From positions 84,315 through 148,314 of the forward strand of contig JAAXIC010000018.1 of NCBI GenBank assembly GCA_012270555.1: a DNA stretch of 64,000 bases, read 5' to 3'. Source of the stretch: Chloroflexota bacterium (GTDB taxonomy: Bacteria; Chloroflexota; UBA11872; VXOZ01). Of the stretch, positions 32,657 to 42,445 are shown in pieces; position 1 is the first letter of the stretch, and every line of letters starts with the position of its first letter. The notes below the pieces were generated by a model that saw only the letters and a program-made list of their open reading frames with translations, had not been told where the DNA came from and did not search any database. The position numbers and the translations under genes are program-made.

Positions 32657-32893
32657 GCGTCTAACTAACTCTCTGGACGGATCTATGTCAGAGCCTCCAA
32701 CCAGACGCCAGAACGCGGAGAAGCCGCAGCGCTTCGTGCCGCCTTCTGAAATTCGTGCTCATTGTAACAGACCAAAGACGGATGGAAAGTATAGAATAAC
32801 ATTGACTGACTCTGGGATGGGATGTAAGGTGTATCCTGAGTGGATAGCCTACGATGCATGGTTCTTCCGAATGTCAGCGAGAGGGAAACCGTC

Positions 32894-33820
32894 ATGCGCA
32901 GCTATGGGTCAGCAAGGCTCTTCCCGTTGTTCTTGCTGTTGTTGGCGCTCGCAGGCTGTGCCGTAACGCCTGGCAGCTTGCCGACTGCGAAGACTGTTTC
33001 GGGAGAAGGAGTTGACGTCAACGTGGGAGCGCGCACCGACCAAAGTGAGAATTGTCCGGTCAGCGCGCCCACTATCGCGACGCCGCCGGACTCGCAGTAC
33101 CGCGATGCGCTGCCCCACGGCGAGTATTTTGTAAGCGCAGACAAGAAGCTCTGGGTGGATGCGACCGAGTGGCGACAAGGCCGTACTAAGTATCCTTGGG
33201 TGAAACCGTATGGTTCAGAATTGGTCGTTCAGGGGCGCCGCCTCGACGCTGACGCCCCGCGGCTTTGGGTCGAGATAGCCCCCAATTATTCTCGGGACTT
33301 TCAACCGAGCTTCATAACAATCCCTACCGCTGGCTGCTGGGAGATTGAAGCCCGGGCCGGCACAAGTGCTCTGCGGTTTGTGCTCTACATCGCTTCACAG
33401 CCGGAGCTTGTCCAAGACGTCGATTGCAGACGGCTTGGTGACGTGGTGAAGCCGGATAGGGTGATTTTTGTGGGTCACATTGAAAATCGCTCCGTAGGCC
33501 CCAACGGACGGTGGGCATGGCTGAGCTTGCAGGTAATGGACAATCTCTATCCCTACTCACTTTATGGATCTGCCGTAAGTGTTGGCAGAGGCTTGGCGGT
33601 CCTGCAAGATGCGCAGCGAGAGCCGCTGCTCGCGCCAGGAAAAGACTATCTACTCGTACTTCACGGGGTACCGTGGCAAATCGTCTGTCCGTTGCAGACG
33701 GTGGCGGGAGTGGACTTTTCGCAAGAGCCGGCACTGGTAGTGCTGTCAACGGCACAGCCACTTTGGTTGGGAACGACGGTGACGGAAATCGAAGCCGAGA
33801 TCAGAAAGGCTCAACAGTGA
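32894..33820 (+). CDS. Hypothetical lipoprotein
   Basis: MRSYGSARLFPLFLLLLALAGCAVTPG signal/lipobox. Confidence 0.65.
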   Translation: MRSYGSARLFPLFLLLLALAGCAVTPGSLPTAKTVSGEGVDVNVGARTDQSENCPVSAPTIATPPDSQYRDALPHGEYFVSADKKLWVDATEWRQGRTKYPWVKPYGSELVVQGRRLDADAPRLWVEIAPNYSRDFQPSFITIPTAGCWEIEARAGTSALRFVLYIASQPELVQDVDCRRLGDVVKPDRVIFVGHIENRSVGPNGRWAWLSLQVMDNLYPYSLYGSAVSVGRGLAVLQDAQREPLLAPGKDYLLVLHGVPWQIVCPLQTVAGVDFSQEPALVVLSTAQPLWLGTTVTEIEAEIRKAQQ

Positions 33821-36287: not shown

Positions 36288-36590
36288 CCCTTAGGAGACC
36301 TCTGCGTGACCTTTACCTGATCGAAACTGTCCCCTTTCCCGCGACGGGGACTTTTGCATAACCCTCGCCGCAGCGAGGCAGTCCCCTCTCCCTCGACGGG
36401 AGAGGGTTAGGGTGAGGGTGAATCTCCTGAAATCTCTACATAGTATACCGATTTTCGCTCTACTATATCTTGACACTGCACAACGCAAGTGACCATTTTA
36501 GCAAAAGGCCCCCTCACCCCGACCCTCTCCCCGGGGAGAGGGCGTAACACCTTTCCCTCGGGACCTGGTTACGCAAAGCTCTCCTTAGAG
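36288..36590. repeat. Large imperfect inverted repeat: two head-to-head copies of a MITE-like palindromic element
   Basis: Ends CCCTTAGGAGACCTCTGCGTGACC / GGTTACGCAAAGCTCTCCTTAGAG; inner CCCTCTCCCTCGACGGGAGAGGG..GGGTGAGGG and CCCCTCACCCCGACCCTCTCCCCGGGGAGAGGG. Confidence 0.75.
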
Positions 36591-36769
36591 TTCTCATGCG
36601 ACCTGCGCCGCCAAGCGAGAACCTCGTGGCCGTGGTTTCTTCAATGCTACCCACCTGGTAGCCAATTGCCAACTTGTGTTGCTTGCTCCACATAGCCGCT
36701 GCGTACCCGTGTCGATTTTAGAGCAATGCTTGTCCAAGACGGTATTATAGGCGGTAGCGTGAATGTCCA

Positions 36770-39739
36770 TTGGAACAGAACGCAATCATCGAAAGAACCC
36801 GCACAGTGAATGTCCACTCGCCCGACATCACTCCGGACAGGGACAACCCTATACGCCTGCGAGACGAATTGCGGCAGGCGGTGGAGGCCGAAGTTGCTGC
36901 GACGCAGGCCCAGGCGGCGACGTTTCGCGCGGAGGTGGTGTCCGGCACGCTGCTAACGGAATCTGACACCGACTGCGTGTACACGTTCTGGTTGAGTTCG
37001 CTCTTGCCAATCCTAGACGATACGCCGGGCGAACTCCGCATTGGCAGCCAGGTGCATTCCTGCCGCATCGTGGCCGTGGCCGGCTTGCGCGTGTCGCTGC
37101 TGCTAGCGTCCGCGCCCGCCCGCTTTATCGAGCGCGCCACGCTGGTGGCACAGCCGTGGGTAGCGCTCAGTCGGCTTCACGAGGAGCTTGAACATCACGC
37201 AGCAGAGTCTACTACCGGCCAAGGGTTGAGCGCGGTGCTCTTTGGCGGGAAGGCTGGCGGTGCGGCAGAGATTCCCTCTCAGACAGGCGCTCAGGACGTG
37301 GCGCCGCTTGATGAGGCGCAAGAGAAGGCGCTCGCTGCGGCGCTCCGGCATCCGGTGGCGGTTATCGCCGGACCGGCGCACTCCGGCAAGACCCTCGTGC
37401 TTAGCAGAATAGCGGCCGCCTGCCTGGCGTCCGGCAAACGTGTTCTCATACTGGCGGCTGCAAACGACTCCGTCGATTCAGTGCTCGGGACGCTGGCCTC
37501 AGCCGGCGCAAGGCCCACGTATGCTGCCGGCGAGATGCTGCGGAGCGGCTGTAGCGTTTCTCCGGACATGCGGCGCGCGCACCCCTTGCTTGCGCCGGAA
37601 CAGGCCGAAAATCGCCTCCGAGCGGAACTGGAGCAGGAGATGGCGGCGCTGGAAACCGAGCGGACCACGCTAACGGAACGAGCGCACGCCCTCAACGTCT
37701 TGCAGAAGGCGGCGGGCCTTGCCCAGCGCGCGGCAGAAGAACGTGCCGCGGTGCAGGCGGAGGTGGCTGCGCTGTTGGCGCGACAGGAAGACGGGGCTCA
37801 GGACGGTGCGGGACCTTCAAGCGTGCAGTTCTTGAAAGAGCGGTGGCAGTACGTGTGGCAGCACGCCAAGCGTCTCACGGGGCGCTCTACCGGCGGCTTC
37901 CGGCTAACGTATCGTGAGGACTCGGAGCGGCAGCGGCAGGCAGCCTATGCGTATGCGCAGCAACTCGCGGAAGCGCAACGCCGCCTTGATGAATGTAACG
38001 CTACCGCGGAGCGTCTGCATGCCAGCGTTCGTGGGCAACTCGCACAGTACGATCTCACCACTGACAGTGTGGATGCAGCCTGCGCAGACACGGCAACGCG
38101 ACTGGACGCGCTGGAGCAGAAGCAAGAGAGCACCCTAGGCGACTTGAAGGAAGTACAGCGCGCCGCCCGTGCGCGCGCCCGCTTAGTGGGGTGTACGCTC
38201 ACACACGCCCTCGTTGCCGAGACGTTCGCGCCGGAGTCGTTCGACGTTGTACTCGTCGACGATGCCCACGGCATCCCCCTGCCGCACCTCTTCTGGGCAG
38301 CCGGTCTGGCGGGTGCGCGTCTGGTTGTTACCACGGAGGAAGCCGCACTGCAGCCGTGGCACTGCGCGCCGCAGGCGGTCGCAAGGCGGTGGCTGGGACG
38401 CTCATTCGTCGCGCACCTGGCAGGCATGGGTGCGCAATCTGCGCCGTGGGTAGCCAACCTCACGGAGCGCTACGCCTTGCAAGAGCCGTTTACCGAAGCC
38501 GTGTCACGCTGGCTGCAGGAGGCCGCCGCAGGCAATAGATCGCGGTCGCTGCGGTCGCCGCCGCGACTGCAGGGGCCGCGCCATAGTGTGAGGCGGCGCC
38601 TACCGGTCCGTGGGCATACGGTTCCGTTTGCGGAGGCCCTTGGCGGTCAAAGTCCAGTCGTCTTGGCGGATACCGGTCCGGTGAAGCCGTGGAGCGAGGC
38701 CGTTCCCCTGGAAGGGCGCGTGAGCCTAGCAAGCGCCCTCGCCACGATTTCGCTTGCGGAACGTCTTGGTGATTCTGAGCCCAAGTCTTCGATTGCGCTC
38801 GTTACACCATACGCCGCACAGGCTCGCGTCCTCGTTAAATTGGCAAGTGATCGAGACGTGGCCGCAATTAGCAGTGTTTTTGCGCCACCGTGCCTGCCAA
38901 GACGAGCGGCTGACATAGTGATACTGGATACCGTGGAGACACCGGGCGCATTCACGTGGTCTGCGCTCGACGACTCACGCCCGGATTCTCAGGCGTATGC
39001 TTTCTATAGCGGCGTGTTTACGCAGGCGCGGCAGCGCGTCTTTATCGTGGCGCACTGGAAGCACGTGCGAGACACATTCGGCGCGCGCGCGCTCTTGCGG
39101 CGCATACTAGGCGAAGCTGTGCACGCAAAGTGGACGGTTTCGGCGGCAGAGCTGTTGCCGAGCGAACGGGCGGGTACGCTGCCATACGTGGCGGCGGCTT
39201 TGTCTCGTACAAATGAAACGAAAAGCAAGCGGTCCGGCACAGCCACCGGCTGGCGGCTGCTCTTGGAGGACCTGCAAGCGGCAGAGCGCCTCATCACTAT
39301 ATGGAGTCCGCATCTGGCCCTGACGACGGTGGAGCGCGTGGTGAGTTGGCTGCCGTCCGCGCTCTTGGAGCGCGGCGCCGTGCGCGTTATCACGCTCCCA
39401 AGCGGGCAGCGCAGCGGGCAAAGCGTGCAGTCGGCGGAAGCGCGCCTCGTGTGCGAGCAAATGGGCGTGCGCGTGGAAGAACGCAACGCATTGGCGGCCA
39501 ATCTTGTCATTGTAGACGACCGGCTCGCCTGGGACTGTACGTTTCCGCCGCTGGGGGCTAATAGCCGTGGCGGGGAGATGCGCCGTATCAAGAGCGCCCA
39601 TGTCGCGCGCGTGCTGCGTAGGCTCTTGTCGGCGCCGGTCAGCGGTGCGATCACCGAAGATATCGCCGCGTTCCTGCCTTTCACCGGGATGGGTACTGGC
39701 ATAGAGAATGCGGTCGTAGATCGAGCGCACCGTGCGTAA
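36770..39739 (+). CDS. SF1 (UPF1-like) AAA helicase-type protein with coiled-coil insert and C-terminal PLD-like domain, motifs degenerate
   Basis: LDEAQEKALAAALRHPVAVIAGPAHSGKT; VVLVDDAHGIPLPHL; VTPYAAQARVL; ADIVILDTVE; FTQARQRVFIVAHWKH; LLEDLQAAERLITIWSPHL..LAANLVIVDDRLAW..GGEMRRI; TTG start. Confidence 0.75.
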   Translation: MEQNAIIERTRTVNVHSPDITPDRDNPIRLRDELRQAVEAEVAATQAQAATFRAEVVSGTLLTESDTDCVYTFWLSSLLPILDDTPGELRIGSQVHSCRIVAVAGLRVSLLLASAPARFIERATLVAQPWVALSRLHEELEHHAAESTTGQGLSAVLFGGKAGGAAEIPSQTGAQDVAPLDEAQEKALAAALRHPVAVIAGPAHSGKTLVLSRIAAACLASGKRVLILAAANDSVDSVLGTLASAGARPTYAAGEMLRSGCSVSPDMRRAHPLLAPEQAENRLRAELEQEMAALETERTTLTERAHALNVLQKAAGLAQRAAEERAAVQAEVAALLARQEDGAQDGAGPSSVQFLKERWQYVWQHAKRLTGRSTGGFRLTYREDSERQRQAAYAYAQQLAEAQRRLDECNATAERLHASVRGQLAQYDLTTDSVDAACADTATRLDALEQKQESTLGDLKEVQRAARARARLVGCTLTHALVAETFAPESFDVVLVDDAHGIPLPHLFWAAGLAGARLVVTTEEAALQPWHCAPQAVARRWLGRSFVAHLAGMGAQSAPWVANLTERYALQEPFTEAVSRWLQEAAAGNRSRSLRSPPRLQGPRHSVRRRLPVRGHTVPFAEALGGQSPVVLADTGPVKPWSEAVPLEGRVSLASALATISLAERLGDSEPKSSIALVTPYAAQARVLVKLASDRDVAAISSVFAPPCLPRRAADIVILDTVETPGAFTWSALDDSRPDSQAYAFYSGVFTQARQRVFIVAHWKHVRDTFGARALLRRILGEAVHAKWTVSAAELLPSERAGTLPYVAAALSRTNETKSKRSGTATGWRLLLEDLQAAERLITIWSPHLALTTVERVVSWLPSALLERGAVRVITLPSGQRSGQSVQSAEARLVCEQMGVRVEERNALAANLVIVDDRLAWDCTFPPLGANSRGGEMRRIKSAHVARVLRRLLSAPVSGAITEDIAAFLPFTGMGTGIENAVVDRAHRA

Positions 39740-40328: not shown

Positions 40329-40754
40329 CTACGCACCGTCCACCAACTCGATACGGTTACCGTAACGGCGGAAGTCTGCGGCATTGAATGTCAACAGTCT
40401 GCGCTCCCCGTGCGCCAGCATGGTTGCGACGATGTTGGCGTCGTGAATCTGCCGCCCTTCTACCGCAACCTCGCGACACAGCGTGAGCAAAGACTGGGTT
40501 ACCTCGGGACCATCTTCAAGCATCTCAAAGCTGTTCGTCAACCGGTCCACGTCAGCGAGTGCGTCCTCCCGCGCGATGGCAATTGACCAGGTCTGCGGGC
40601 GAGTGACTACGGACAGATACTCACGCACAACCTGCCGGCTGATCCGCAGCGGTTCAAGGTCTTGAAACGCGCGTTCCAAATGTGCTCTGGCACGATTGTG
40701 GTCTGGGGCCTCGAAAATGCGGGCACTTACGAGAATATTGGTGTCAATGAACAT
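40329..40754 (-). CDS. PIN-domain ribonuclease (VapC-like toxin)
   Basis: MFIDTNILVSA; VREYLSV; IHDANIVATMLAHGERRLLTFNAADFRRY. Confidence 0.85.
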   Translation of the reverse strand: MFIDTNILVSARIFEAPDHNRARAHLERAFQDLEPLRISRQVVREYLSVVTRPQTWSIAIAREDALADVDRLTNSFEMLEDGPEVTQSLLTLCREVAVEGRQIHDANIVATMLAHGERRLLTFNAADFRRYGNRIELVDGA

Positions 40755-41284: not shown

Positions 41285-41424
41285 CCTTAGATGAGGACCT
41301 TTGCATAACCTAAGCCTGAAGTCGGAAAGACCCCCTCTCCCAGGGGAGAGGGCTGGGGTGAGGGGAAATCTTCACCGTTCCGCCCATTTGCACGCCCTTG
41401 TAGAGTTACGCAAAGGTCTCTTAG
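41285..41424. repeat. MITE-like element with TIR-like ends
   Basis: CCTTAGATGAGGACCTTTGCATAACC (left) and GTTACGCAAAGGTCTCTTAG (right); inner CCCTCTCCCAGGGGAGAGGGCTGGGGTGAGGGG. Confidence 0.75.
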
Positions 41425-42360: not shown

Positions 42361-42445
42361 CCCCTCACCCCGGCCCTCTCCCCAGGGAGAGGGAGTCTTT
42401 TCGGCTGCCGCTCCGGGTAATGCAAAGATCTCCCCTAAGAGAGGG
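42361..42445. repeat. Third copy of the MITE-like element (one end recognisable)
   Basis: CCCCTCACCCCGGCCCTCTCCCCAGGGAGAGGG..GGGTAATGCAAAGATCTCCCCTAAGAG. Confidence 0.7.

Follow-up and report, generated by a model that had tools for sequence, protein, structure and literature searches.

The window (the whole 64,000-nucleotide stretch of DNA that was analysed) carries on its forward strand an open frame of 989 codons, running from a TTG at 36770 to a stop codon ending at 39739. Translation probably starts at GTG 36806, giving a protein of 977 amino acids; this start was chosen because the same column holds an ATG in G003 and an in-frame TAA lies just upstream in G004. The order of genes at the locus is decarboxylase, lipoprotein-like ORF, GHL6 hydrolase, the gene under study (pseudo-helicase gene), YbaK-like deacylase, SDR, methyltransferase, enolase-superfamily enzyme and CehA-like protein, the enolase-superfamily, CehA-like and lipoprotein-like labels being tentative readings of the sequences. 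With Pfam, the eight flanking genes gave a decarboxylase, a GHL6, a YbaK-like, a PIN, an SDR and a methyltransferase match, two genes remaining without match. These neighbours are metabolic and do not form a defence island, and the flanking genes examined included neither a partner gene next to the pseudo-helicase gene nor, among the eight, any CnuB, CnuC or CnuE. Gene order is unchanged over about 18 kb in G001-G004, and in G005 up to the limit of its short contig, which ends inside the gene. This shared order indicates that the locus was inherited, and the identical synteny excludes a recent mobile insertion. The features discussed below are the following.

36640..36674, forward strand: upstream block TTCAATGCTACCCACCTGGTAGCCAATTGCCAACT (35 nt), the best-conserved intergenic block across the six genomes
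36770..39739, forward strand: whole open frame of the pseudo-helicase/pseudo-PLD protein, opening with TTG 36770; orthologs in all six genomes of the genus
36920..37150, forward strand: N-terminal beta-barrel, residues 51-127; the SMUBP-2/UPF1 profile alignment starts at its end
37370..37393, forward strand: motif I/Walker A, GPAHSGKT; GP and GKT retained in all six orthologs
37463..37477, forward strand: motif Ia; N232 and D236 retained
37556..38179, forward strand: helical coiled-coil insert (predicted secondary structure), residues 263-470, between Walker A and motif II; same position in intact relatives
38258..38269, forward strand: motif II, DDAH (family D-E-x-S); catalytic Glu replaced by Asp and Ser by His in all six
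38324..38356, forward strand: motif III, VVTTEEAALQP (family xxxGDxxQLxP); Gly and Gln lost
38465..38479, forward strand: motif IV, ERYAL (family QYRM); Gln replaced by Arg in all six, Arg by Ala, Val, Gly, Thr, Ser and Gly
38882..38908, forward strand: motif V, APPCLPRRA (family HxFQGxE); wholly replaced, with His to Pro, Phe to Leu and Gln to Pro in all six
39008..39031, forward strand: motif VI, SGVFTQAR (family NVAxTRA); arginine finger lost (Arg to Gln, Phe in G001)
39248..39631, forward strand: C-terminal PLD-like domain, residues 827-954; colinear with the intact PLDc_2 of the G342 homolog
39491..39547, forward strand: former HKD core, LAANLVIVDDRLAWDCTFP; His to Ala, Lys to Asn or Ser, Asp kept, Gly-Ser to Cys-Thr, Asn to Pro

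The upstream block is a putative gene-specific promoter or operator. It occurs only once in the genome, even when three mismatches are allowed, and was thus rejected as part of a regulon. No Rfam match was found in the region. A dispersed, REP-like inverted repeat (CCCTCACCC..ACCCTCTCCC) is present at 36398-36418, 36511-36531, 41344-41364 and 42362-42382, that is in four copies in the window compared to zero in shuffled sequences. Two flanking ORFs deserve mention on their own account. The 326-aa lipoprotein-like ORF (32840-33820), which has no Pfam match, evolves very fast (47-49% identity to G002 and G004, most neighbours being far higher), and a PIN-domain ORF, possibly a VapC-like toxin, lies at 40329-40754 in the window and in G004 but was not detected at that place in G001-G003.

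Among 101 relatives, no genome outside the six of the window's genus yielded the full-length gene, and a profile search across 41 genomes of the class agreed with this genus-restricted distribution. The other orthologs are 92, 81, 64, 56 and 55% identical to the window copy. Named records of the gene are Chloroflexi MAGs, one of which, SB0662_bin_44, belongs to a series that we take to come from marine sponges.

We then considered the domain layout of the protein. Pfam detected AAA_11 (5e-12, first RecA-like domain) and a trace of AAA_12 (E 0.25), but no PLD domain. PADLOC profiles matched as MkoA (6e-14) and, over residues 828-932, as MkoC (2e-7); the top NCBIfam match was the IGHMBP2 helicase family, far under the family cut-off, and profile comparison gave SMUBP-2 (1.4e-11) and UPF1 (8e-8). 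By fold and descent, as judged from its sequence, the protein is a UPF1-like SF1 helicase. The AlphaFold model, for which the input comprised only four close orthologs, was poor (pLDDT 41 for the whole protein, 51 for the PLD part). Its most confident portion was the N-terminal beta-barrel (pLDDT about 66-78), which is probably the 1B/OB-like domain of UPF1-type helicases.

A profile search of 399 genomes of the phylum, a sample drawn evenly from a larger group, revealed a 999-aa protein in G342, from another family, that aligns with residues 24-940 of the window protein (E 3e-103). Other full-length relatives were found in G193, G315, G400 and G461. All five carry GPPGTGKT, DE[AV]S, GDxxQL, QxRM, HxFQGxE, [TS]R[AP] and MHxK(x4)D. 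The G342 protein matches MkoA at 8e-53 and MkoC at 2e-46 with PADLOC, and intact relatives match these profiles at 1e-27 to 1e-61. Since such colinear homologs from other Chloroflexota families keep all motifs, the substitutions in the window protein could be read column by column. Within this wider family, the SF1 helicase of the G193 (L076:3114-6935) and G214 (L081:2676-5798) proteins is preceded by a fused TIR-like region at the N-terminus, and the G193 protein also has an intact PLD; the TIR-like region of G193 is suggested by reading of its sequence, whereas in the G214 protein, which is similar, TIR profiles matched. In an Aulosira laxa plasmid protein, BAZ78165.1 (L113 5947-8595), the helicase motifs are intact and the PLD catalytic core is lost.

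To describe the state of each motif we aligned the six orthologs with eleven relatives having intact helicase motifs, the PLD columns being taken from the five with an intact PLD. Thirty-seven motif columns were invariant in the intact set; all six orthologs have lost 22 of these and all six retain 13. Of the 31 invariant columns lying outside the motifs, 20 were kept and 8 were lost. The lost columns are the Glu of motif II, the Gly and Gln of III, the Gln and Arg of IV, the His, Phe, Gln and Gly of V, the Asn, Val, Ala and Arg of VI and, in the PLD core, the His, the Lys, the following Gly-Ser and the Asn. The kept columns are GP..GKT, N232 and D236 of motif Ia, D497 of motif II, L527, P529, P680, Q684 and D916. 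Of the motif set of an active UPF1-like SF1 helicase, the six orthologs thus retain no more than motif I and the leading Asp of motif II, and none has the HxK(x4)D signature of an active PLD-family nuclease. These substitutions are common to six orthologs of 54-92% identity, hence neither chance nor sequencing error accounts for them, and colinear intact homologs fix each column, excluding a misplaced alignment.

In the alignment with intact relatives, every altered motif fell at the position given by the original prediction, the sequences there being DDAH (II), TTEEAALQP (III), ERYALQ (IV), FAPPCLPRRAAD (V), VFTQARQR (VI) and ALAANLVIVDD (PLD core), and the alignment likewise showed the retained Walker A and the announced architecture of SF1 core, coiled-coil insert and C-terminal PLD-like domain, which is colinear with the intact homologs. 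Two of its statements held in a refined form. The QYRM position is altered specifically by Gln to Arg and by Arg to Ala, Val, Gly, Thr or Ser, and the PLD core, said to have lost His and Lys and kept Asp, reads AxN(x4)D instead of HxK(x4)D in all orthologs except that of G002, where Ser stands for Asn. Intact motifs elsewhere in the protein would have contradicted the prediction; the alignment being colinear end to end, none is hidden.

In SF1 enzymes, the residues lost here serve as general base, gamma-phosphate sensors and arginine fingers, whereas the retained ones are what holding a Mg-nucleotide requires; loss of HxK takes away the PLD nucleophile. Loss of the catalytic residues for ATP hydrolysis, gamma-phosphate sensing, strand coupling and backbone cutting is therefore well supported by the alignment, and helicase and nuclease activities have very likely both disappeared. 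The Glu to Asp change in motif II and the lost arginines predict an absence of hydrolysis, but do not prove it. A weak or slow ATPase working through DDxH without canonical arginine fingers would agree with the retention of GKT, motif Ia and the motif II Asp in all six orthologs. We nevertheless consider it highly improbable, the motif III Gln, the arginines of motifs IV and VI and the whole of motif V having been lost together.

We next examined whether the gene is under selection. Pairwise NG86 dN/dS was 0.26 between the window copy and those of G005 and G004, and 0.22-0.23 with G002. It was below 1 in every domain, the second half of the SF1 core, domain 2A and the PLD showing values of 0.13-0.29. 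Most neighbouring genes had values of 0.04-0.16, the lipoprotein-like ORF resembling the pseudo-helicase gene. The constraint is therefore real but weaker than on the surrounding enzymes. For the PLD part, dS among the copies of the window, G004 and G005 is low, a hint of gene conversion in this segment. In the tree, the six orthologs formed one clade (100/100) with the intact G342 protein as sister (99/95). The stem leading to this clade measured 2.33 changes per site, an approximate length as several alignment rows have biased composition. Plain decay of a defence gene heading to loss could be read into this long stem and into a dN/dS above that of most neighbours. However, the frame is open in six species, with identity down to 54% and no frameshift in any of the six genomes, dN/dS is well below 1, replacement residues are fixed and an upstream element is conserved; simple decay is thus close to refuted. 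The original prediction of an intact frame encoding a conserved pseudo-helicase/pseudo-nuclease, and not a dead gene, is borne out, since purifying selection was observed in place of relaxed selection or frameshifts.

Conservation is unevenly distributed along the protein. Within the genus, represented by six genomes, the windows of motifs III, IV, V and VI show roughly the mean conservation of the whole protein, as would be the case for motifs without a catalytic role any more, and the Walker A and motif II windows exceed this mean somewhat, though not significantly. The 18-residue window at the former HKD, by contrast, ranks in the top 0.7% of protein windows. Several replacement residues are fixed (D498, H500, R567, P707, L709, P710, V749, A909, C923, T924, F925 and P926). 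Together with D497, W530, H531, C532, D916, D917 and W921, also invariant in the six orthologs, residues D498, H500 and C923 might mark old sites refitted (DDxH in motif II, WHC after III, DDRxxWxCTFPP in the PLD) into a different, perhaps metal-dependent enzyme. This seems quite improbable, since windows III-VI show only about average conservation, unlike a typical active site, and the meeting of these residues in space is a supposition from sequence. Less doubtful, if still rather unlikely, is a broader domestication in which a defence helicase-nuclease became a core non-canonical protein, its ATPase and nuclease sites refitted with fixed residues (DDxH...WHC; DDRxxWxCTFPP) as a new binding or catalytic site.

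We find moderately likely a nucleotide-binding, non-hydrolysing pseudo-helicase/pseudo-nuclease scaffold or sensor, derived from a helicase-PLD ancestor of the Mokosh-II/CnuH style. A single-chain SF1 (UPF1-like) helicase-coiled-coil-PLD protein would have given rise to a catalytically dead form, which became fixed before the genus radiated and was then kept by purifying selection. Nearly all catalytic residues being replaced while selection preserves the protein, it probably works by binding and not by cutting or unwinding. Nucleotide would be bound without turnover through the retained P-loop GKT, the Mg-binding Asp of motif II and motif Ia, and single-stranded nucleic acid perhaps through domains 1A/1B. 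In this state, and with its long coiled coil and the surface at the former HKD, which is highly conserved, the protein may hold a partner and act as a scaffold or a nucleotide-gated sensor, a role through binding to which we give even chances. The coiled-coil insert is a reasonable partner-binding arm because CnuH helicases have one in the same position, for which contact with a nuclease effector is predicted (PMC11090510).

Several known systems resemble the window protein. The Chloroflexota single-chain SF1 helicase-PLD proteins (G342, G400, G461 and the TIR-fused G193) share with it a colinear N-terminal domain, Walker A, coiled-coil insert, SF1 core and terminal PLD, but in them no helicase motif is altered and HxK(x4)D is intact, and several end in a C-terminal tail resembling a Zn ribbon, which the window protein lacks. 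MkoC of Mokosh type II (RNA helicase and PLD in one chain) has the same domain pair in the same order. The resemblance to Mokosh type II suggested by the original prediction thus holds for architecture and descent, as shown by the intact-homolog alignment and the MkoA/MkoC profiles, but not for catalytic features: the window protein lacks, by sequence, the catalytic residues of both helicase and nuclease, and its gene is not in a defence island. Its tie to defence is by descent only. CnuH of CoCoNuT has a UPF1-like core and an OB/1B domain, and its Walker A is followed by a large coiled-coil insertion (PMC11090510), at the place where the predicted helical residues 263-470 lie in the window protein and in its relatives; CnuH, however, stands beside McrBC-like genes and usually has a separate nuclease, CnuE (PMC11090510), neighbours that the window locus lacks, and the motifs are lost in the window protein. 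In Deinococcus PriA (PMC4504706) and yeast Utp25 (PMC9539457) the helicase fold and a biological role are retained without the catalytic motifs; D. radiodurans PriA has lost ATPase activity while keeping DNA and DnaB binding (PMC4504706). These two precedents belong to other helicase families, and PriA has lost the Walker A lysine, whereas the window protein keeps Walker A and has also lost its nuclease domain's activity signature. BAZ78165.1, of the same family, with its PLD core also lost and its helicase motifs intact, is a half-way case. The window protein, for its part, is like other pseudohelicases a helicase homolog with its catalytic motifs lost, maintained by selection (dN/dS 0.22-0.26, six of six genomes, synteny).

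A decoy or guard, a dead protein that mimics an active helicase-PLD defence protein and binds or senses phage inhibitors, would also agree with an origin in a family that matches MkoA/MkoC and includes members with N-terminal TIR-like regions, and with an evolution faster than that of most neighbours (64% identity to G002, against 78-94% for most neighbours). We hold this to be improbable. There is no intact paralog to protect, the window's own genome having no AAA_12 helicase match and only G001 in the genus having one above the cut-off; the neighbours are metabolic; and a search of viral contigs with the dead form yielded no relative. The same contigs searched with the intact form gave distant helicases only, and a plasmid search with the dead form gave two distant helicase matches only, both on cyanobacterial plasmids. 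A literature search found nothing on a pseudoenzyme helicase in phage defence.

Inactivated nuclease domains, whose retention the CoCoNuT authors also reported (PMC11090510), and lone pseudohelicases are already known; it is unusual for helicase and nuclease both to be disarmed in a single chain that is nevertheless kept under selection throughout a genus. When defence genes are annotated by profiles, such dead proteins can be labelled as active systems. The intact sister of G342 type and the six dead orthologs are a ready comparison set, and they offer a clean test of whether anti-phage machines can become housekeeping or sensing proteins.
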